Source of the DNA: Saprospiraceae bacterium | GTDB taxonomy: Bacteria; Bacteroidota; Bacteroidia; Chitinophagales; Saprospiraceae | Length of the DNA stretch: 64,000 bases | Direction of reading: 5' to 3' | Assembly: GCA_020628475.1 (NCBI GenBank) | Contig: JAHDFB010000001.1 | Coordinates: 1-64,000, forward strand | Notes under the pieces: model-generated | Told to the model about the DNA's origin: nothing | Databases searched by the model: none | What the model saw: the letters and a program-made list of their open reading frames with translations, nothing else | Shown here: positions 5,681 through 27,772 of the stretch, in pieces | Layout: each line of letters opens with the position of its first letter | Position numbering within the stretch: position 1 is the stretch's first letter | Program-made: the position numbers and the translations under genes

Positions 5681-6406
5681 ATGAATAAAATATTTTCGAT
5701 AACAGCCGTAATGGCCTTGTGCTTTTCTTTCATTTCAAATGTTTCAGCACAAAAAGAATTGAAAGAAGGTGTGATAACCATGGAATTAACGGAAGTTAAG
5801 GCAGATGATCCAGCTATGCAGGCTCAATTGCAAATGATGAAAGGTTCTTCTACTGTGGTAGCCTTTGATGAGAAAAAATCGGTTGTGAAAATGGAAATGA
5901 TGGGTGGAATGATGGGTATGACCATTGTCACCAGCAATGAAGATAAAACAGGGTTTTTATTGTTCGACATGTCTATGGTCGGTATGAAAAACAAGGTGAA
6001 TATCAATGCCGAAGATGTTGCTAAACAAAAGGAAACAGAAGCGGCAAATGATATGGAAGTAACCTATGACAAATCCGACACAAAAGAAATCGCTGGGTAC
6101 AAATGTTTCAAAGCGACGATCAGTTCACCAGATATGCAAGGTTCAACGATTACGGCATATTTGACGGATGAAATAAAGATTAAAGCGGACGTAATCCAAG
6201 GTATTAGCGCCGATAAAATCGATGGTTTTCCATTGGAGTATTCTATTGGCGGACCTGGAATGTCAATGATCTATACAACGACCGATGTGAAATTCGAAGT
6301 GGATGATTCTATGTTAAACGTAAATACAGAGGGGTTCGAAGAAATGTCTATGGAAGAGTTTCAGAATAAAATGAAAGCGTTTGGTGGCGGAGGAATGGGA
6401 TTCTAA
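5681..6406 (+). CDS. DUF4412-type secreted protein
   Basis: A 241-residue protein with a signal peptide at 1-23 (NVSAQ). Its body has the pattern of DUF4412 proteins: a first strand EGVITMELTEVK, a Met/Gly-rich segment about 68-80, and the stretch KEIAGYKCFKATI with a single Cys. The C terminus is glycine-rich. These proteins are probably periplasmic or surface lipid/envelope-associated beta-sandwich proteins of unknown role. The gene stands alone between a 129-base gap and a convergent terminator. Confidence 0.75.
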   Translation: MNKIFSITAVMALCFSFISNVSAQKELKEGVITMELTEVKADDPAMQAQLQMMKGSSTVVAFDEKKSVVKMEMMGGMMGMTIVTSNEDKTGFLLFDMSMVGMKNKVNINAEDVAKQKETEAANDMEVTYDKSDTKEIAGYKCFKATISSPDMQGSTITAYLTDEIKIKADVIQGISADKIDGFPLEYSIGGPGMSMIYTTTDVKFEVDDSMLNVNTEGFEEMSMEEFQNKMKAFGGGGMGF

Positions 6407-6544: not shown

Positions 6545-9130
6545 TTAAAACTCTAAACGCACACTCAGATTGGGAGTAAATAATAGGTTCCTTCGTTCTA
6601 AGCTTGTAATGTTTGTTGTCATATTAGGACCTTGCAGTAAGAAGTATTCGCGGCTTTCAATGTTTTCTTGATTAAAAAGGTTAAGTACCGAAAAACTGAT
6701 GGTCATCGTCTGATGTTTATTCCATTGATAATTATAGGCAATGGAGCTGTTAATTTCATAAATAGGACTTAGGCGTTCGGTATTAATGCCCGAGTATATG
6801 AGTTGATATTGATTATCTTGCCCCGTTTGTATGAAATCAACAATTTCTGAATAAGGTAACCCAGAGGCAAATTTTAAGCCGAGACCCAATTCAAATCGTT
6901 GTATTCGAATTTTATTCGACCATTGTAGAACATGTGTTTGATCAAAATCCGATAAAAATGCTGCTTCCTGAAGTTCTAAAAATTCAAAGGCCGTTCTGCT
7001 TAATGAATAACTGAGCCAAGATTTTAGATTTTTGTATCGTTTCTTTATTAGAATATCCAGCCCTAAAATATCTGCCGATCCAACAATAGGTTGTCCACGG
7101 TCGACCAATTCAATATCATGTGCACGACTACTTAAGTTGCTGATGGTTCTGCGATAAGCTTGTATATCGAAGACCCATTGCCCAAAACTAGCAACACTAC
7201 CAATCTGGAATAAATCGGCCGATTGTACAGGAATTTTATTACGTTCAGATAGAGCCCAAAGGGAAGCGCTGATTCCAAAATTATTCCCTCGAAACTCTTG
7301 AACCTGACTTATAAATTGATAGTGACGTCCATAATTAGCATGAACACTTATCTGGTCATTAAGTGCATAGGAAAGACGCACTCGTGGCTCGGGATACAGA
7401 TTGTCAAAACGTCCAAACAAGCTTGTACGTAGTCCGATATTGACGCCTATAATTTGGTGAATAGGGTTTTTCCAACTGACATATAGGCTATGTAATGAAG
7501 ATTGAGTATTCGCATTATCTTCAACTTTAGTGTCCATCCGAACCTGTTCCAATACAGAAAACGCGACTTCATAGTGATTGTATTGATATCCAATTTCCCA
7601 AACTTGATGCAATCGATTTTTACCCTTGGTGCTTATACCAATCTGACGATCGATAATTTGATTGGTTTTCTCGCCGATAACCTGAAAATCTTCAGGATTA
7701 TCAACCCGGTTAGCAAACGCATAATCAAATGAATAATTCGTGTAAATGCCTTGTATATTTGATTGAATAGAAGAGTTCCATTGTTTTTGATAAAAAGCAC
7801 TCAATCCAATATTAGAAATGAATAGACTGTCACTTTGAAATTCGTTTTGGACATTGTTCTGAATATCATCTATAAATTGATTTCGTGCAAAGAGGCCAGA
7901 AAATTCAAGTCGTTGAGTGGCTGAAAGTTTCGATGAAATTTTAATATTGGCATCGCCAAAATAAATGTCATCTTCCACCATAATGTGATCTGGTAAACCA
8001 GCTAAAGCCTTATTTCCCAGAATTAAACCTTGTTCATTGTATAGAGCGATATTTTTGAAAGTTGGCGTTCTGAACCATTCATCATAAGACCGTCTCAATG
8101 AAAAATCAATACTAACAGGCCGCTTTCCAGGAAGAAATTGATGCCCATATAAATAGGCATGTGTCATATTTATTCCTACGCCATATCGAACAAGCGTATC
8201 CCGTTCATTCGAGCTGCTAAGTTTCATCACGCCGGCTATTCGCCCACCGTATTCTGCACCAAAACCTCCACGATAAACCTCCATTTCATCAATAATAAAA
8301 GGATTTATAGCAGATACCATCCCAAAATAATGAGCCGCGTGATAAATTGGAATGTTTTCCCATAAAATGAGATTTTGATCCGGTGTACATCCTCGGATGC
8401 GAATATCCGATGCCTGTGAACTAGGAGAGGAGATGCCGGGTAAGAACTGAGCTAAAGCCAGCACATCTGGTTCTGCAGCCCCAGGAAGACTACCAATCCG
8501 TCTAGGAGAGAGAACCGTTGATGCCCCATTATCCTGAAGATCGATACCGTCTAGTATGTAATCTTTAATAATTAAGAAATCGTCCGAATAATCTGGAAGT
8601 TCCAAGTAAATTTCAACACAATCTCCGTCAATGGCTTTTATGGAATACAGCCTTTGTTCATAACCTACATATCGAATGACCAAGTTACTTCCAATTTGAA
8701 GCTGATTCAGCTCGAAAAAACCTTGTTCATTGGCAGCCGTTCCAACGGAGCTCCCTTCAATTTGAACCGTGGCATAGGGTAGTATTGAGTTGCTTTCCGC
8801 ATCTTTTATAGTCCCGCATACGTACCCTTTGATGGGAATAGGCATTGCTTTGATCGCGATGAAGTTTCCTTCCAAGCGAACATATGTAAGCTGATTTTTA
8901 GTAAAAACTTCTTCGAGAATGAGCTCAATAGAATCGGTCTCTATATGAACTTCAATAAATCGATTTTCTACGTCAGCAATCTTATACGAAAAAAGAATGT
9001 CCGTTTGAGATTCAATGTCTTGCATGATATCAATGATCGAACCATGATTAAAATGCAAGATGACACTTGGACCTTGAGCCCAAATTGCACAGCTTAGAAA
9101 TATGAAAATAAGCGTGATTCCCCCGCGCAC
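6545..9130 (-). CDS. FecA-like TonB-dependent receptor with STN signalling domain
   Basis: An 861-residue receptor starting at GTG 9130; no ATG is near and a signal peptide (1-18, AIWAQ) follows directly. Residues about 20-77 form an STN (secretin/TonB N-terminal) domain, the part that contacts a FecR anti-sigma factor in the periplasm. Residues about 95-180 are a carboxypeptidase-regulatory-like domain (ILPYATVQIEGSSVGT). The plug follows (VLALAQFLPGISSPSS, SDIRIRGCTPDQNLILW), then the barrel, ending VRLEF. It is the last gene of a sigma - fecR - receptor operon, 15 bases after fecR, so ligand uptake probably induces its own synthesis. The ligand is unknown. Confidence 0.92.
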   Translation of the reverse strand: MRGGITLIFIFLSCAIWAQGPSVILHFNHGSIIDIMQDIESQTDILFSYKIADVENRFIEVHIETDSIELILEEVFTKNQLTYVRLEGNFIAIKAMPIPIKGYVCGTIKDAESNSILPYATVQIEGSSVGTAANEQGFFELNQLQIGSNLVIRYVGYEQRLYSIKAIDGDCVEIYLELPDYSDDFLIIKDYILDGIDLQDNGASTVLSPRRIGSLPGAAEPDVLALAQFLPGISSPSSQASDIRIRGCTPDQNLILWENIPIYHAAHYFGMVSAINPFIIDEMEVYRGGFGAEYGGRIAGVMKLSSSNERDTLVRYGVGINMTHAYLYGHQFLPGKRPVSIDFSLRRSYDEWFRTPTFKNIALYNEQGLILGNKALAGLPDHIMVEDDIYFGDANIKISSKLSATQRLEFSGLFARNQFIDDIQNNVQNEFQSDSLFISNIGLSAFYQKQWNSSIQSNIQGIYTNYSFDYAFANRVDNPEDFQVIGEKTNQIIDRQIGISTKGKNRLHQVWEIGYQYNHYEVAFSVLEQVRMDTKVEDNANTQSSLHSLYVSWKNPIHQIIGVNIGLRTSLFGRFDNLYPEPRVRLSYALNDQISVHANYGRHYQFISQVQEFRGNNFGISASLWALSERNKIPVQSADLFQIGSVASFGQWVFDIQAYRRTISNLSSRAHDIELVDRGQPIVGSADILGLDILIKKRYKNLKSWLSYSLSRTAFEFLELQEAAFLSDFDQTHVLQWSNKIRIQRFELGLGLKFASGLPYSEIVDFIQTGQDNQYQLIYSGINTERLSPIYEINSSIAYNYQWNKHQTMTISFSVLNLFNQENIESREYFLLQGPNMTTNITSLERRNLLFTPNLSVRLEF

Positions 9131-9145
9131 AAAACGATTTCTTAT

Positions 9146-13571: not shown

Positions 13572-16500
13572 ATGAAACGAATAAACTTACTTACTACACT
13601 ATTTACTATTATTTATTCTTTTCAATTTGTTCAAGCACAAGACTGCATTCAATTACCAGATACCATCTATCATTGTGGATTTACACTGGAAGTAATGCCC
13701 ACGGAATTTAATTTCCCCGGAATTTGGATTTACGATTGCGAAGATGGCGATGGAAATATTGCTATTCAGGAAATTAACAACGGAATTTATCAATTTACCT
13801 TTTCAAATTGTGGTTATTACTCTGTTCGATTTTATGTTGAAGAGTGTGATGAAGAAAAGCTAGTGGTGTTTAGGGTAGATGACCCTAGTTACACCCATAC
13901 AGAAATCAATGGCAATAATAGCCTAGGATACTTCAATTATTCTTGCCATTCTGATGGGAGTTCTTGTGATAATGTTGTCACCATAGAAGGAGAATTACCA
14001 CCTGATCCAGAATGGGATATTTGTTATGATTTGTTTTGCGAATACAAACATTATTTTACGACATCTACACCGGACGATCCAGAGAATTGTTTAGTCCAGC
14101 TCATTGAAGTCGATAGTGTTTCAGGCGCCAATTCGTCTTCATCCTGTTCGCCTTTTGATGCGACCGATATGACAGCGGATATTTTCTGCGATATTGTCGA
14201 TAGTATATACAATCAAGCCATCTCAGAGGCTTCCTGCCCTCCAGTGCTTTCTGAATGTTTTGATATTCCAGAATCTTGTATCGATAGTATTACCTATGAT
14301 ACCATCGATTTATTATTTCCCATCCATGATGGAGGTAGATGGACGATGTTAGAAGGGATAGATACGATCATATTAGACGATACCACTTCGATTAATAAAT
14401 ACATGAAAGATCTTCTATTTATTATTGAACCAGGAGCGGATTATTATGGCCCAGGTGATTTAACCTTTACACTTTTGGAAATCGATAGCAATGGCGATAC
14501 GATTCCGACGGCCTTTGACGCAGAATTTGTATTATGGTGGCAGGAATTATGGCATTATGATACACTAACACAGATAATTCCGACTATTCATTATGCAGAT
14601 GATCCAGAATGTCAGAGTTGCGGAGGAAATTCATTCAGTAGTTCTAAGAATATTCCTGGGATTCCGGAGTACCTCTGTCCACCAATAACCATTTCCTTTG
14701 GAGATCCTTGTTCTTGCGAAGAAGGCGCAATTTCTATTACGGGAGGAGATATTTCTTGCTATGATCCGTGTACCATCTTGGTGGCTGATGTCAATTTTAG
14801 TGAACCGAATATCACGATTGATTCAGCTTATTGGACAGGTCCAGCTGGTGACATGGGCGGTAGCAACACCATAACGGTTTGCGAAGGAGGGGTCTATAGT
14901 TATACGGTTATCACAGCTCCACATGGCTGCGAATACAGTGAGTCATTCGTCGTTCAAGAAAACTTCAATGAACCGATGGCAAATATCTCAGGAAATTTAG
15001 TCATTGACTGTATACACCAATGTGCAACGATTATAATTGAGATATTTTCCGAATTTACATCGGGAATCATACAATTACCGGACGGAGAAAATATTCCGAT
15101 ATCAGATCCAACGACAATTTTAGATTGGTGTCAGCCGGGTAGCCTAACAATAGAACTCTTAGATACGATTTCAGGATGTACCAACGAATATACTCTTGAA
15201 ATAATAGATGAGACAGAGGATATAGAATTTATGATCAATCCTACCGAAACGATTACTTGCTTAGTTGAGTGTGTCCCCTTAACCATTTCTGAATTAAATG
15301 TTCCTGCTGGTGCGGACTACCTGTGGACAGGCCCTAATGGATTTACGGCAAATACTCCTAACACGGAAGCATGTGAAGCGGGAATCTATGTATTGATGAT
15401 AAATTATGGTAATTGTTGGGATGCGCAAACGATAGAAGTCTTTGACTTCTTCGAATCGGTGGAAATTCAGGAAGCTGCCGAAGTTTGTGAAGGTGATTGC
15501 TACATTTTCCAAGGACAATTATTCTGCGAGTCAGGTATCTACTCCTTTGAAGGGGCATGTGATTCTTTATTCATACTAGATTTGACTGTCCACACACCTG
15601 ATTTCATTGATAAGTACGAATTTATCTGTGAGGGCGATCAAGTCATTGTAGATGGAATGGTATTCGATTCAGAAGGAATCTTCCCCTACGAAATACAAGA
15701 TGGAAACCTTTGTCCAACTTTCGTAACGCTCGAAGTAGAAGTATTTGAAATGGATCTGTTCGTGTCGGGTACACCATCCATTGATTGTAACAATAGTACG
15801 ACCATTTTATCGGTGAGCACGAGCAATCCTGAACAAAATTTCTATTGGTATGATCCACAAAATCAAGTAATTTCGACATCCTATATGGTGGAAGTTTCAG
15901 AAGCTGGTACCTATACCGTCCAAAATGTCTCTTCGAACAATCTTTGCATAGCAGAATTACAAATTGTTGTACAAGGAAACTTCGAAATACCAGCATTAGA
16001 CCTACCTACGCATCAAGAGATAAATTGTCAAAATGAAATTCAATTGTTTGCGGATATTGATATGAATGAAGATATCGATTTTTATTGGACAGGTCCCAAT
16101 ATGCCGGCAGATCAGCAAATTGTCCAAAACCCTATTGTTACGGAACCTGGTATATATGAATTAATCATAGAAAATGAATTTGGTTGTACAAATTCGGCTA
16201 GTGTAGAATTGATTCAACTTGATCCGTTGACCGCCTCGATTCAAACAGATAAGACCTGTGAAAATGAAGCCAATGGACGTATAGAAGTCGAGCTAATATC
16301 AGGTGGAGTAGCTCCATTCCAATATAGGCTCATCGATGGTGAATATCAATCGAGTAATGTCTTCGAAAATGTAGAAGCAGGCGAACATATAGTATACATT
16401 CTACAAGGAGATGGATGTATTTCTGAATCTGAAGCGGTGGTAGAAAACATTGCACCAATCGAACCAATAGTTCAGTTTGAAGAAGCCTATGAATTATGTG

Positions 16501-17900: not shown

Positions 17901-19525
17901 TGAGAAGCAATTGGCTATATCTGACAATATTCATGGTCGTTTTAGGAGGCTGTCAATCCAATACGAATTCCACAGATCATGTTCATGTTTTTCATTACAA
18001 TCAACCCAACAGAATTACCTCTTTAGACCCCGCTTTTGCCAAAAGTCAAAACAATATGTGGGCGATTCATCATATTTTCAGCACGCTGGTACAGCTGGAC
18101 GAAAATCTAGAATTGCAGCCGAATCTGGCTAAAAGTTGGTCAATAACTGACGATGGATTGGAATATACCTTTCATCTACATAAGGACGTGCGATTTCATG
18201 ATAATGAATGTTTTGAAAATGAGCAAGATCGAAGCTTACGGGCCCAAGATGTGGTGTTTAGTTTCAATCGTTTAATCAGTAAAGATTTAAATGCTCCCGG
18301 GTCTTGGATATTTGCTGGAAAAGTAGACCCTCAGCGGCCATTCGAAGCCCCCGATGATAGCACCTTCGTTCTTCATCTTCAGAAACCTTTCCTGCCCATG
18401 CTCAATATGTTGAGTATGCAATATTGTTCCGTGGTATCCGAGAATGCCGTCCGTTATTACAAGAAAAATACAAGATCCAATCCAGTCGGTACGGGGCCTT
18501 TTCGGTGTAAACGATGGATCGAAACGCAAGGATTATACCTCGTTAAAAATGAAGACTATTTCGAAAATGTAGGTGGTCAAGGACCGCCATACTTGGATGG
18601 AGTGCGCACCTCCTTCATGGAAGATAAAAAAATCGCATTTCTCGAATTATTAAACCAAAAGGTAGAGTGTGTTTCTGGTTTGGAATCCTCATTTATCAAC
18701 GAATTATTGGACCAAGAGGGCGATTTGAAAGAAGATAAAAAGTCAAAAATTAACTTATATAAAAGTCCATATCTCAACGTTGAATATCTAGGAATAAATA
18801 TGGACAATATTGCCTCGAATCAGGCGCTTTCGGATAAACGCGTTCGTCAAGCATTAAACTATGCTATAGATCGGATAACCATGATGCAATCATTGAGAAA
18901 TAATATCGGGATTCCAGCTAATTCAGGGATAATTCCGAGAGGATTGCCTTCCTATGACCCCAAAATGGTGCCGGGATATGCCTATGATTTACAAAAGGCC
19001 AAAATGCTATTGAAAGAGGCGGGCTATGAAAATGGAGTAGGCATGGAGCCCTTGGACATTCATACAAACAAGGATTATCTAGATATCACTACTTTCGTTG
19101 CCAAACAGTGGGAAGCGCTTGGAATACAAGTTAGTATTAACCTGTTAGAATCCGCCTCTTTACGGGAAGGCATGCGCAAGGGAAATCTGGATATATTCAG
19201 GGCATCTTGGATCGCGGATTACCCCGATGGAGAAAATTTTCTTTGTCTATTTTACTCGGATTACCCAGCACCACCCAATTATACTAGATTTAAAAACCCT
19301 GATTTTGATATGTTGTACAAGCAAGCCATTGCTGAAACAGATTTATCAAAGCGAACGGAACTCTATCATCAAATGAATCGTATTATAGTGGATGAAGCAC
19401 CCGTCATATTCTTATTTTATGATGAATCTGCCTTATTTACCACCAAAAATATACAAGGAATAGAAACGAATGCCCTTAATTTATTACAAGTTAAAAATTT
19501 GAAAGAAGTAGCATGGAAAGAGTAA
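17900..19525 (+). CDS. Family 5 (oligopeptide-type) ABC solute-binding lipoprotein
   Basis: A 541-residue protein. The signal ends in the lipobox VLGGC, so Cys18 is lipidated. The SBP family 5 fold is clear: LDPAFAKSQNN, then LAKSWSITDDGLEYTFHL and DVRFHDN, then VVFSFNRL, VGTGPFRCKRW, DKRVRQALNYAIDR and ANSGIIPRGLPSYD. It binds peptides or similar solutes outside the cytoplasmic membrane. No permease or ATPase gene is adjacent, so it is an orphan here. It overlaps the FMN reductase gene by one base and lipB by 13 bases. Confidence 0.9.
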   Translation: MRSNWLYLTIFMVVLGGCQSNTNSTDHVHVFHYNQPNRITSLDPAFAKSQNNMWAIHHIFSTLVQLDENLELQPNLAKSWSITDDGLEYTFHLHKDVRFHDNECFENEQDRSLRAQDVVFSFNRLISKDLNAPGSWIFAGKVDPQRPFEAPDDSTFVLHLQKPFLPMLNMLSMQYCSVVSENAVRYYKKNTRSNPVGTGPFRCKRWIETQGLYLVKNEDYFENVGGQGPPYLDGVRTSFMEDKKIAFLELLNQKVECVSGLESSFINELLDQEGDLKEDKKSKINLYKSPYLNVEYLGINMDNIASNQALSDKRVRQALNYAIDRITMMQSLRNNIGIPANSGIIPRGLPSYDPKMVPGYAYDLQKAKMLLKEAGYENGVGMEPLDIHTNKDYLDITTFVAKQWEALGIQVSINLLESASLREGMRKGNLDIFRASWIADYPDGENFLCLFYSDYPAPPNYTRFKNPDFDMLYKQAIAETDLSKRTELYHQMNRIIVDEAPVIFLFYDESALFTTKNIQGIETNALNLLQVKNLKEVAWKE

Positions 19526-20229
19526 CCGTACAAGTGGAGGATTTGGGTAAAATTCGGTATCAAGAGGCTTGGGATTACCAGACAGAAGTGCATAATCGCG
19601 TCAAGAATATTAAGATCGATAATCGTAAGGCGGAGGAAAAAGACCGGCAAAAACAGGAGCATTACTTTTTGTTTTGTGAGCATCCTCACGTATACACCTT
19701 GGGTAAAAGCGGTTCGGTCGATCATCTTTTGATCGATGAGAAGAAGCGGGCCACGGAATCGATCGATTACTTCAAGATCAATCGAGGTGGAGATATTACC
19801 TATCACGGTCCAGGACAGGTCGTGGGATACCCGATCTTGGATATGGATGAAATTTTTACAGACATCCATAAATATGTGAGATTCTTGGAGGAAATGGTGA
19901 TTCGCACCTGTGCGGATTATGGTATCAAGGCAGATCGTATACCAGATTATACGGGCGTCTGGTTATTAGATGGCGATAAAAAACGCAAGATTTGTGCGAT
20001 CGGCGTTCATCTTTCACGTTGGGTTACCATGCATGGATTTGCTTTCAATATCAATACGGATTTGGATTATTTCAATTACATCGTGCCTTGTGGCATCAAT
20101 GATCAAGACAAGACAGTCACTTCTCTTCAGAAAGAGCTAGGCAGACCGATAGATATGAAGGAAGTGAGACAGCGATTATTACATCACTTTAAAGCATTGT
20201 TCGAGGTCGATTTATTGATCGATGAATAA
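19513..20229 (+). CDS. lipB: Octanoyl-[acyl-carrier-protein]:protein N-octanoyltransferase (LipB)
   Basis: A 238-residue enzyme that moves octanoyl groups from acyl carrier protein to lipoyl domains, the first step of lipoate synthesis. Visible signatures: HPHVYTLGKSG, the RGGDITYHGPGQVVGYPI block, the catalytic Lys (K159) in KRKICAIGV, HGFAFNINTDLDYF, and the catalytic Cys (C193) in IVPCGI. The start at ATG 19513 overlaps the preceding lipoprotein gene by 13 bases, implying co-translation. An ACP gene opens the same cluster. LipA was not seen in the window. Confidence 0.95.
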   Translation: MERVTVQVEDLGKIRYQEAWDYQTEVHNRVKNIKIDNRKAEEKDRQKQEHYFLFCEHPHVYTLGKSGSVDHLLIDEKKRATESIDYFKINRGGDITYHGPGQVVGYPILDMDEIFTDIHKYVRFLEEMVIRTCADYGIKADRIPDYTGVWLLDGDKKRKICAIGVHLSRWVTMHGFAFNINTDLDYFNYIVPCGINDQDKTVTSLQKELGRPIDMKEVRQRLLHHFKALFEVDLLIDE

Positions 20230-20233
20230 TATT

Positions 20234-20346
20234 TGGGGCGTCCCTTGCCGATCTTTCAGATCGTCGACGGGTCGGGTCGTTCGCTGTTTCACGATGTTCA
20301 TCCCTTCGGGAGGCGGAATACTCCGCCCAGCTGCCACCCCTTAGCC
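20234..20346. repeat. GC-rich multi-hairpin intergenic element
   Basis: About 113 bases of clearly higher GC than the flanks, directly after lipB. It opens with GGGGCGTCCC and contains three hairpins: CGATCT/AGATCG (20249-20263), TCCC/GGGA (20301-20311), and GGCGGA/TCCGCC (20312-20327). Between them lies GGGTCGGGTCGTTCGCT, and it ends CTGCCACCCCTTAGCC. No open frame of note runs through it. From memory, this order (GGGCGT, hairpin, GTCGGGC, TTCGCT, hairpin, CCATCCCT) is like a dispersed repeat seen in many Bacteroidota genomes; that cannot be checked here. Confidence 0.5.
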
Positions 20347-20405
20347 ATATCGAGGGCGTATCAAGGCCAGACTGTTAGGATACTTCAAACTCTTATACGT
20401 TGAAA

Positions 20406-21245
20406 CTATAGGTTCTTCAATTGCTCTTCTATATCAAATGTGGAAATATTGTACGTGGCAAAAATGGCTCTATTATATCCACCATGCTTTCCTTTTTTTC
20501 GCTCCAAAGAAGCTTGATAATATTTTCGAGCTTGATCAATATTCCCTTGAGCTTGATGTATACGACCTAGATAGAAATAGTTGTCTGCAAATTTTTCATC
20601 GTAAGACAATTGTCTCTCAAAATGCTGGTAAGCTTGTACATAATCCTTCTTCTGAAAATAAAGCAAGCCAAGACAATAATGATCGTATAATCCTTTTAAA
20701 TTAGCTTCCTGTTCATAGAGAACCATCAATTGCTCGATGATGTGGATACCTTTATCAACGGAACCTTCTAAGGCATAGGCCATAGCCAATAACAAACGCA
20801 TTTCAAGTTCGCCACCCGGGGTAGTTACATAATGGGCTTGATGCACCTGATACAGGCTTTCTAAATCTTGGATACAAGCTTGGAAATTATAATTATAGAA
20901 ATACCAGTAAGCCCTGTAAAATAAGTAATTAGCAGGTTCCAATTCGATGGCTTTATTAATCAACGTCAAGCCTTCGGCGTACCGTGCTCGTTTAAAATAA
21001 GGGACTGACTTCTGATAATAGGCGTAAGCATACTTCGGACCGATCTGGATGGCTTGATCAAACAGATATTGCGATTCCTTACTGCCTTGCTCGTACTCGA
21101 TGGCTCGATAACTCAGTTCACATGCCATCCGCTCACCGCTTTCCAAAGGATAAATCTGACAATTTCCTTGCCCCTGTATGCTAGAGTACAGCATGATACA
21201 GGCTAAGATAGCGACGAATCTACAGTAAAATATGTTGTATTTCAC
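20406..21245 (-). CDS. Secreted tetratricopeptide-repeat protein
   Basis: A 279-residue protein with a signal peptide (about 1-26, ending SIQGQ) and at least four TPR units, among them AYAYYQKSVPYFKRARYAEG, GLYDHYCLGLLYFQKKDYVQ and ADNYFYLGRIHQAQGNIDQ. The start is GTG 21245, and the gene overlaps the upstream gene by 26 bases. It is likely a periplasmic or surface scaffold; no partner is evident beyond the co-transcribed lipoprotein. Confidence 0.8.
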   Translation of the reverse strand: MKYNIFYCRFVAILACIMLYSSIQGQGNCQIYPLESGERMACELSYRAIEYEQGSKESQYLFDQAIQIGPKYAYAYYQKSVPYFKRARYAEGLTLINKAIELEPANYLFYRAYWYFYNYNFQACIQDLESLYQVHQAHYVTTPGGELEMRLLLAMAYALEGSVDKGIHIIEQLMVLYEQEANLKGLYDHYCLGLLYFQKKDYVQAYQHFERQLSYDEKFADNYFYLGRIHQAQGNIDQARKYYQASLERKKGKHGGYNRAIFATYNISTFDIEEQLKNL

Positions 21246-26953: not shown

Positions 26954-27772
26954 CTACTGTACCATTTCTACTTGGATTAATTCCATATCTAAAGATTGGC
27001 CGATATAATTCGTGGATTCAAATTTTATAAAGCCAAAAGTCTCATGAAACCAATAAGTCATATACGAAGTACCTAAAGGAATTTGAGAACTTGCTTCGAT
27101 TTTCCAACAAGAATCAATGTCGGCATAAGGCGTTTTAACAGATTCCTTAGCCACCACTTCAAAACGACTTCTTACCCTCAGACCTTTCCATTCACCGGGA
27201 TAGTCGGATAAATCTATTTCGGAATCCGTCCACTTTTTACCGATCCTTATTGGTAAAACAACTTGGGGGAATGGCAATATTTCCGTCATATGATATTGAT
27301 TGGATCGAAATGGATGCATCCATACTTTTTCAACATTTTCAGTAATTCCAGTAATTTCACTTCTTTGCCAGTCAAATCGAGTAAAATGTTGATTTAAAAA
27401 ATGAGATTCAATAATATCCAATTTGCTGGAATCATAGCTGTATTCTATTAATATTTCATCTTGTTTTTCAGGATCTATTTTCCAACGATTACCTGTTGGT
27501 GTTATCTTAATAATTTCATCGGAAATAACTTGATTTAAAGAATCTTTGTAAATAACTCGATAGCTCATTTTTTGACACGGTTTGAATATATCTCGTCTTT
27601 TTTCGATTCTCAATAATGAGTCAATCTCAGGAGTCATTTCACCTACAATCTTCGCTCGATAATCATAGGCAGGCATATTATCATTATTGCAGATGGAGTC
27701 TGTTGCAGATTTGCTCGGTTGGCAATTCCAAAAGAGTATAATGGATATGAAAAGGAATATAAGTGTTTTCAT
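26954..27772 (-). CDS. Lipoprotein of unknown function
   Basis: A 272-residue protein that starts at ATG 27772 (an open frame begins at TTG 27778). The signal IILFWNC makes Cys17 the lipidation site. The rest is beta-rich, with strands such as KMSYRVIYKDSLNQVISDEIIKI and LPIRIGKKWTDSEIDLSDY, resembling outer-membrane-lipoprotein-like sandwich proteins. I do not recognise a family. It sits downstream of pssA on the same strand, with a 61-base gap. Confidence 0.65.
   Translation of the reverse strand: MKTLIFLFISIILFWNCQPSKSATDSICNNDNMPAYDYRAKIVGEMTPEIDSLLRIEKRRDIFKPCQKMSYRVIYKDSLNQVISDEIIKITPTGNRWKIDPEKQDEILIEYSYDSSKLDIIESHFLNQHFTRFDWQRSEITGITENVEKVWMHPFRSNQYHMTEILPFPQVVLPIRIGKKWTDSEIDLSDYPGEWKGLRVRSRFEVVAKESVKTPYADIDSCWKIEASSQIPLGTSYMTYWFHETFGFIKFESTNYIGQSLDMELIQVEMVQ

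Follow-up and report, generated by a model that had tools for sequence, protein, structure and literature searches.

A GC-rich hairpin element downstream of lipB in a Saprospiraceae genome, probably a divergent copy of a dispersed repeat of Bacteroidota

The element between lipB and a convergent TPR gene

Just downstream of lipB, the window (the whole stretch of Saprospiraceae DNA that was analysed, 64,000 nucleotides) contains about 113 bases that are rich in GC and in hairpins. The question raised by this locus is whether such a stretch exceeds chance and, if so, whether it acts as a structured RNA or as a repeat at the DNA level. Positions 20235-20346 have a GC fraction of 0.62, compared with 0.365 in each 200-base flank, and a GC scan identified them as the only spot in the 64-kb window where 113 bases attain 62% GC. 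The T at position 20234 lies outside the element, which begins at 20235 or 20236. No open reading frame of at least 60 aa overlaps 20235-20346, and a scan of 20100-20500 for terminator-like and promoter-like signals returned none. An earlier note had described a GC-rich stretch of about 113 bases, devoid of a gene, in which three hairpins alternate with sequence blocks. This description is accurate, with the hairpins located at 20249-20263, 20301-20311 and 20312-20327, although the overall folding energy is ordinary when compared with shuffled sequences. The element, which sits between the 3' ends of lipB and of a convergent TPR gene, is drawn here as GGGCG...NNCGC, whereas Rfam models the opposite strand. 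Its parts and neighbours are the following.

19513..20229, + strand: lipB, lipoyl(octanoyl) transferase, which stops just 5' of the element (NF010925, 209.3 bits, cut-off 155)
20235..20346, no strand assigned: complete element, related to the Flavo-1 (RF01705) repeat family but divergent (covariance model, GC content, BLAST)
20237..20239, + strand: outer stem P1, 5' side, GGC (read from the sequence)
20249..20263, + strand: variable hairpin P2, CGATCT-TTC-AGATCG (folding and alignment)
20272..20286, + strand: 5' core, TC-GGG-TCGT-T-CGCTG, where the standard is TC-RGG-CTWT-N-CGCT (alignment)
20301..20311, + strand: hairpin TCCC-TTC-GGGA (sequence and BLAST)
20312..20327, + strand: variable apical hairpin, GGCGGA-ATAC-TCCGCC (RNA and DNA folding)
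20328..20341, + strand: 3' core, CAGC-TG-CCAC-CCC-T (alignment and consensus fold)
20344..20346, + strand: outer stem P1, 3' side, GCC (read from the sequence)
20406..21245, - strand: gene of a TPR-repeat protein, convergent with lipB, with its 3' end beyond the element (ORF call and domain match)

In the window copy, the 3' core pairs with the 5' core through GCTG/CAGC and GGG/CCC. The outer stem comprises only three pairs (GGC/GCC) in a shifted register, compared with GCGNN/NNCGC in standard copies; the pairs of the standard register break, and one internal pair is lost. The hairpin at 20301..20311 carries TCATCCCTTCGGGA or a near-identical string, which is repeated in several other copies of the same genome. 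The folding energy of the element gives z = -0.61 as RNA, with 51 of 200 shuffles being equally or more stable, and z = -1.26 as DNA, with 25 of 200. As both z-scores are ordinary, folding energy was dropped as a proof of structure, and the element exceeds chance because it is recurrent with compensatory changes.

Recurrence and covariation of the family

A BLAST search with the window copy revealed copies on contigs C62, C94, C31 and C23 of the same genome (E-values from 2e-21 to 5e-4), the matches on C94, C31 and C23 being short and the copy on C62 (7226-7306) being 87% identical. Two covariance models were built: R1 was trained on 47 copies, eight of which come from this genome and include the window copy, and R2 on 46 copies, with the window copy left out. 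R2 gives the window copy a weak score of 17.5 bits (E = 0.16), and nothing else in the 64 kb matches at E ≤ 10. The sister copy on C62 scores 16.0 bits, and the copies on C94 and C23 (L003 and L005) score 37.5 and 38.1 bits. A search of the genome with a pattern of the core yielded 13 matches, compared with 8 for the reversed control, so the pattern search alone is unspecific; 11 of the 13 show the block order on reading. At E ≤ 0.01, R1 finds at least 58 matches in this MAG, which is 61% complete, and, in 11 single-contig genomes, at least 28, 28, 11, 9, 9, 1, 29, 31, 9, 17 and 13 matches (range 1-31), counts that are lower bounds since at most 150 candidates were scored per genome.

Plain BLAST against 40 genomes, the own genome and relatives, was too insensitive and matched in the own genome only. 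Among 395 genomes of the phylum, an exact pattern matched 27, with none for the reversed control among the matches listed, and R2 with stricter filters matched 59 (at most 10 candidates scored per genome). Named records with the element, at least 118 stretches, include Flavobacterium, Algibacter, Aquimarina, Pedobacter, Sphingobacterium, Mucilaginibacter, Niabella, Algoriphagus, Bacteroidales MAGs and one Spirochaetales MAG. The earlier note had likened the stretch to a dispersed element of many Bacteroidota genomes, which agrees with the results for the MAG, the 11 single-contig genomes and the phylum survey. The covariance search that it proposed returned many copies with covarying stems, rather than a single copy without covariation. 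Five raw sequence strings were also searched in the literature, and none of the listed papers is on this element, judged by title.

Some copies are unusual in their location or sequence. The standard element of the Spirochaetales MAG (L136, 5847-5923) may result from a transfer or from a misbinned contig. One 37-kb contig of the window's genome, C63, carries three similar copies (66-170, 13594-13697 and 27231-27334), perhaps due to recent local spread. A subfamily of the same genome (L013, L018 and L019) exhibits GGGCGATCC ... TCATCCCTTCGGGA ... CTATCGC with an altered 5' core, and R2 reports L018 alone (18.4 bits). In a relative of the same genus, an apparent degenerate copy, recognised by eye, lies about 750 bp past lipB; R2 does not report this copy.

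The complete unit has a median length of 91 nt, with 90% of 196 copies measuring 77-130 nt and extremes of 72 and 260. The order shared by the copies is GG-GCGNN, CCC with a variable hairpin, TC-RGG-CTWT-N-CGCT, a variable apical part, and CGCT-N-CWAT-CCY-T-NNCGC. The 5' core pairs across the element with CGCT-N-CWAT-CCY-T, and C.T mismatches between the paired segments are kept. The stems vary in a paired fashion and the core sequence is constant, a conservation of core and mismatches that is partly by construction because most elements were found with patterns fixing parts of the core. The bases tested for complementarity (W, R/Y and P1) were left free in the search pattern. Among 151 distinct elements found by pattern, the W/W' pair is complementary in 149 (80 A-T and 69 T-A) and the R/Y pair in all 151 (145 G-C and 6 A-T). 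Leaving out the 23 of these 151 elements that have no upstream GGGYG, 128 copies have a recognisable 5' end, and the variable dinucleotide of P1 is complementary in 120 of them, compared with a mean of 47 and a maximum of 63 in 2000 shuffles. RNAalifold recovered the same fold unaided from 47 copies, with double changes in 10 of 15 pairs; the outer stem is not independent in this analysis because the rows from other genomes were picked for a complementary P1. The 5' end is GGG[CT]G in all 47 aligned copies, partly by construction, as copies were chosen with a 5' GGG. In P2 (116 hairpins), 16 of the 46 triloops are TNC closed by C-G, which we take to be readable as UNCG loops of RNA on one strand and GNA loops of DNA on the other. 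The fold of the family is real, and its stems covary. The stretch at 20235-20346 is probably one diverged copy of a hairpin repeat that is dispersed across the phylum, with Flavo-1 as its standard copies, and this unit probably acts at the DNA level.

Flavo-1 and the choice between RNA and DNA

With regard to Rfam, all 20 submitted loci match Flavo-1 (RF01705) at E ≤ 0.04, nine of them above the gathering score (42 bits), and the matches of standard copies lie on the strand opposite to that drawn here. The conserved core, the apical hairpin and the distribution in Bacteroidota are common to both. In contrast, the RF01705 model (76 nt), which is filed as an sRNA gene, depicts the complementary strand without the pairs of the outer stem P1 and the 5' hairpin P2, and the window copy has no match to Rfam at E ≤ 10. 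Because it is below the Rfam threshold, the window copy is filed as a divergent relative and not as a member of Flavo-1. Judged from sequence and structure (BLAST and R2 scores), it is homologous to the standard Flavo-1 copies. The full anatomy, with an outer stem, a 5' hairpin and a paired core, makes the family searchable beyond the model of Rfam.

Flavo-1 is a candidate sRNA dating from 2010. The table of Weinberg 2010, the part of that source used here, rates it as "probably" RNA and "probably not" cis-regulatory (PMC2864571), and a passage of PMC9029176 counts it among abundant sRNA families. According to the relevant section of a transcriptome study of F. psychrophilum (PMC9723704), several 5' transcribed regions coincide with Flavo-1 hits. 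The same section reports that sense and antisense hits seem to occur indistinctly, with many hits outside any transcribed region, and sees in this no real clue to function. The suggestion of a structured RNA in the earlier note corresponds to the way in which the relatives are catalogued, whereas our own evidence and that section of PMC9723704 fit a DNA repeat better. Its suggestion of a recombination site did not emerge from the analysis.

The placement of the copies is informative in this respect. Among 123 placements, 87 are flanked by called ORFs on both sides, 19 are inside called ORFs (at least 90 aa, 13 of these being below 200 aa) and 17 at locus edges. The 87 intergenic placements comprise 28 (+,+), 23 (+,-), 19 (-,-) and 17 (-,+) gene arrangements, which do not clearly differ from the expectation based on intergenic length (p = 0.066). 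In 60 of the 87, the gene end closest to the copy is a 3' end, compared with 46% expected from intergenic lengths (p = 2e-5). Relative to the upstream gene, 51 copies are sense and 36 antisense, with no significant bias (p = 0.13). The commonest family of neighbour genes occurs at just 7 of 118 loci, and no transposon family is prominent.

The helices of P2 are poor in G-U pairs, with shares of 3.4% and 5.0% on the two strands, compared with 11.3% in 31 tRNAs folded by the same procedure and 11.5% after shuffling of P2. Over whole elements, the shares are 8.4% and 5.0%, nearer to the tRNA value than those of P2. Folded as RNA, 149 of 196 elements are more stable on the strand modelled by Rfam, and the apical stem exhibits a conserved T.G (97 G.T compared with 7 A.C), which points to a folded strand. 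An earlier mixed count over all stems gave 25 G.T and 11 A.C, and the mismatches of P1 and P2 (3 G.T and 11 A.C) name no strand. A strand call from this asymmetry was dropped, since it stems largely from the conserved apical T.G positions and P1 and P2 are without it.

A few sites retain the element across species. For mtaB, the best 30 orthologues were taken from 148 genomes with a match, among 150 genomes of one genus. The element is present in the leader of 10 of these 30, between the start codon and a TAnnTTTG-like motif, recognised by eye, which we take to be the promoter. The outer stem at this site is GCGAA/TTCGC in seven cases and GCGAG/CTCGC, GCGAT/ATCGC or GCGTT/AACGC in the others, and the hairpins differ widely. 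The remaining 20 orthologues have an unrelated leader sequence, and mtaB was rejected as a source of an empty site, as the leader is a different sequence and the element is not simply missing. Eight of the leaders devoid of the element (L303, L305, L309, L310, L313 and L322-L324) show another hairpin, CTCAATT...AATTGAG or similar, perhaps a second leader structure. For ileS, four loci carry the element at a shared upstream site. The retention at mtaB and ileS could reflect either selection at the site or the substitution of one copy for another, and long retention with an intact structure could mean a local function at the RNA level.

Flavo-1 copies could act as small RNAs, or within UTRs to protect or regulate the mRNA next to them. 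The Rfam listing that standard copies match, the rating of Weinberg 2010, the conserved G.T of the apical stem, the structured copies kept upstream of mtaB and ileS, and the transcribed regions of F. psychrophilum all favour this possibility. We nevertheless regard it as unlikely, given the hits in either sense and the many untranscribed hits of F. psychrophilum, the absence of a significant orientation bias relative to the upstream gene, the lack of a widely recurring neighbour gene and the low G-U content of P2. A dispersed hairpin repeat of DNA is probably a better reading of the family than an sRNA. If so, one of the sRNA families in Rfam may consist of DNA repeats, and genome annotations would then contain false sRNA genes.

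Mobility and comparison with known systems

As a dispersed DNA repeat, the unit would act as a scattered hairpin or cruciform substrate. Its core may be a protein-recognition site, as suggested by the kept C.T mismatches, and copies would spread or replace one another by means of a putative trans-acting enzyme. They would settle between genes, near 3' ends, where a copy would probably be nearly neutral for the host, with local effects on mRNA ends, and a few sites, such as the mtaB and ileS leaders, would retain a copy across species.

Neither an insertion nor an excision nor a polymorphic site was observed, and no enzyme emerged from the searches. In the 121 elements with a complementary P1, none has three or more identical abutting bases as a target-site duplication, and 4-base matches at offsets 0-3 number 0-2. 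The 5' flank is rich in TTT (81, 77 and 69%) and the 3' flank in AAA (65, 55 and 48%). The element also occurs on plasmids: 32 records match the stretch around the copy of Q1F2-p2, and of six Bacteroides-group stretches that were read, five have the element and pBACSA01 has a shortened form. As all six contain it, one shortened, plasmids were rejected as a source of an empty site. In four of the six, the element directly follows the stop of an annotated recombinase-family gene; in the pBF9343-type Bacteroides plasmids (L292-L295), it starts right at the stop codon of such a gene. The shortened element of pBACSA01 (L297) has kept its 3' flank and has a different 5' flank, as if a rearrangement had broken at the element. 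Fifteen IMG/VR stretches contain the element, and one contig of 9.2 kb (L282) has three copies (443-511, 6278-6367 and 9070-9138) and encodes an rve-type transposase as well as a TniB-like ATPase; this viral contig is read as Mu-like.

A more specific reading, which we hold only tentatively, takes Flavo-1 not as an RNA gene family but as a DNA hairpin element that is mobile or homing throughout the phylum and relies on a putative enzyme of its own. The GCGNN/NNCGC ends would act as guide and target in single-stranded DNA, and copies would replace one another at occupied sites. Such replacement would explain the differing ends and hairpins at the single mtaB site of related species, and every copy would have its own end specificity.

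The element could instead be a canonical REP of a Y1 (RAYT/TnpA-REP) transposase, perhaps of the Bacteroidetes subclass 2.6, as it is palindromic, mostly intergenic and dispersed without target duplication. To the extent covered by the cited part of PMC6006769, standard REPs carry GTRG at the foot and have tnpA close by, and the flanking structures of the Bacteroidetes subclass 2.6 are atypical. A GT[AG]G foot was not found at the hairpin, the 47 aligned copies all having GGG[CT]G there, partly by construction. We searched for Y1_Tnp (PF01797) in the own genome, 150 genomes of the family, 26 element genomes and the 395 genomes of the phylum. Only 2 of 79 Y1_Tnp loci (303 kb), 30 of which come from genomes not checked beforehand for elements, have an element nearby, about 240 bp (L251) and about 1.9 kb from the match. 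About one is expected at 3.5 copies per Mb, so there is no clear enrichment above background. A motif scan of Y1_Tnp loci found the element in 0 of 57 and 1 of 22. Genomes with the element have the domain slightly more often (47 of 59) than the others (223 of 336; Fisher p = 0.048, without control for phylogeny). No match to it is seen in 12 of the 59, 11 of which are at least 95% complete. The REP-type guess of the earlier note agrees with the distribution and palindromy of the family and fails on the GTRG foot and a flanking tnpA gene. The family is not a standard REP in this comparison, which covers standard GTRG REPs, and a canonical REP is, on the whole, improbable.

Alternatively, the palindromes may be kept perfect by template switching during replication, which is quasi-palindrome correction, around a core selected for another reason, such as the binding of a nucleoid or supercoiling protein. 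The Watson-Crick pairing of P2, in which G-U intermediates are scarce, and the wide changes in hairpin length and sequence at the mtaB site agree with this mechanism. However, the kept C.T/T.C mismatches of the core would be erased unless selected, and dispersal is left unexplained, which makes this explanation quite improbable. A MITE of a cut-and-paste (DDE) transposon, with GCGNN/NNCGC as short terminal inverted repeats and TTT before and AAA after, is highly unlikely, since 0 of 121 elements have a target-site duplication, no transposon family is prominent among the neighbours, and the inverted ends differ among copies yet remain complementary, unlike the TIRs of DDE transposons, which are fixed in sequence.

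We return to the dispersed DNA hairpin repeat and to its position among known systems. With GTAG REPs/BIMEs and their RAYT it shares a short, palindromic, dispersed and intergenic nature and a high number of copies, and REPs also tend to lie near the 3' ends of genes. In contrast to them, the family has no GTRG foot, exhibits a larger two-strand core with kept mismatches, and is not enriched near Y1 genes. CGTC REPs, as presented in the cited sections of PMC3733652, are likewise dispersed palindromes without a flanking dedicated transposase and are also reported in Bacteroidetes and Spirochaetes. Their stems of 8-9 bp, loops of 4-5 nt, unpaired CGTC tag and CCA-like tail (same sections of PMC3733652) differ from the multi-helix unit of about 77-130 nt described here.

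The ends of IS200/IS605 elements differ from the family in that no TnpA was found consistently beside its copies and no replichore bias is evident overall (48 compared with 39, for 87 of 116 matches in four of the 12 genomes searched with R1). One of these genomes, G596, has 18 of its 22 listed elements on the G-poor replichore strand (p = 0.004), unlike the three others. The absence of target duplication and the sequence-biased 5' flank (TTT) are common to both. IS200/IS605 ends form a hairpin in single-stranded DNA, in which a guide pairs with the cleavage site. By analogy, the pairing of one end of the element with the other could serve as both guide and site.
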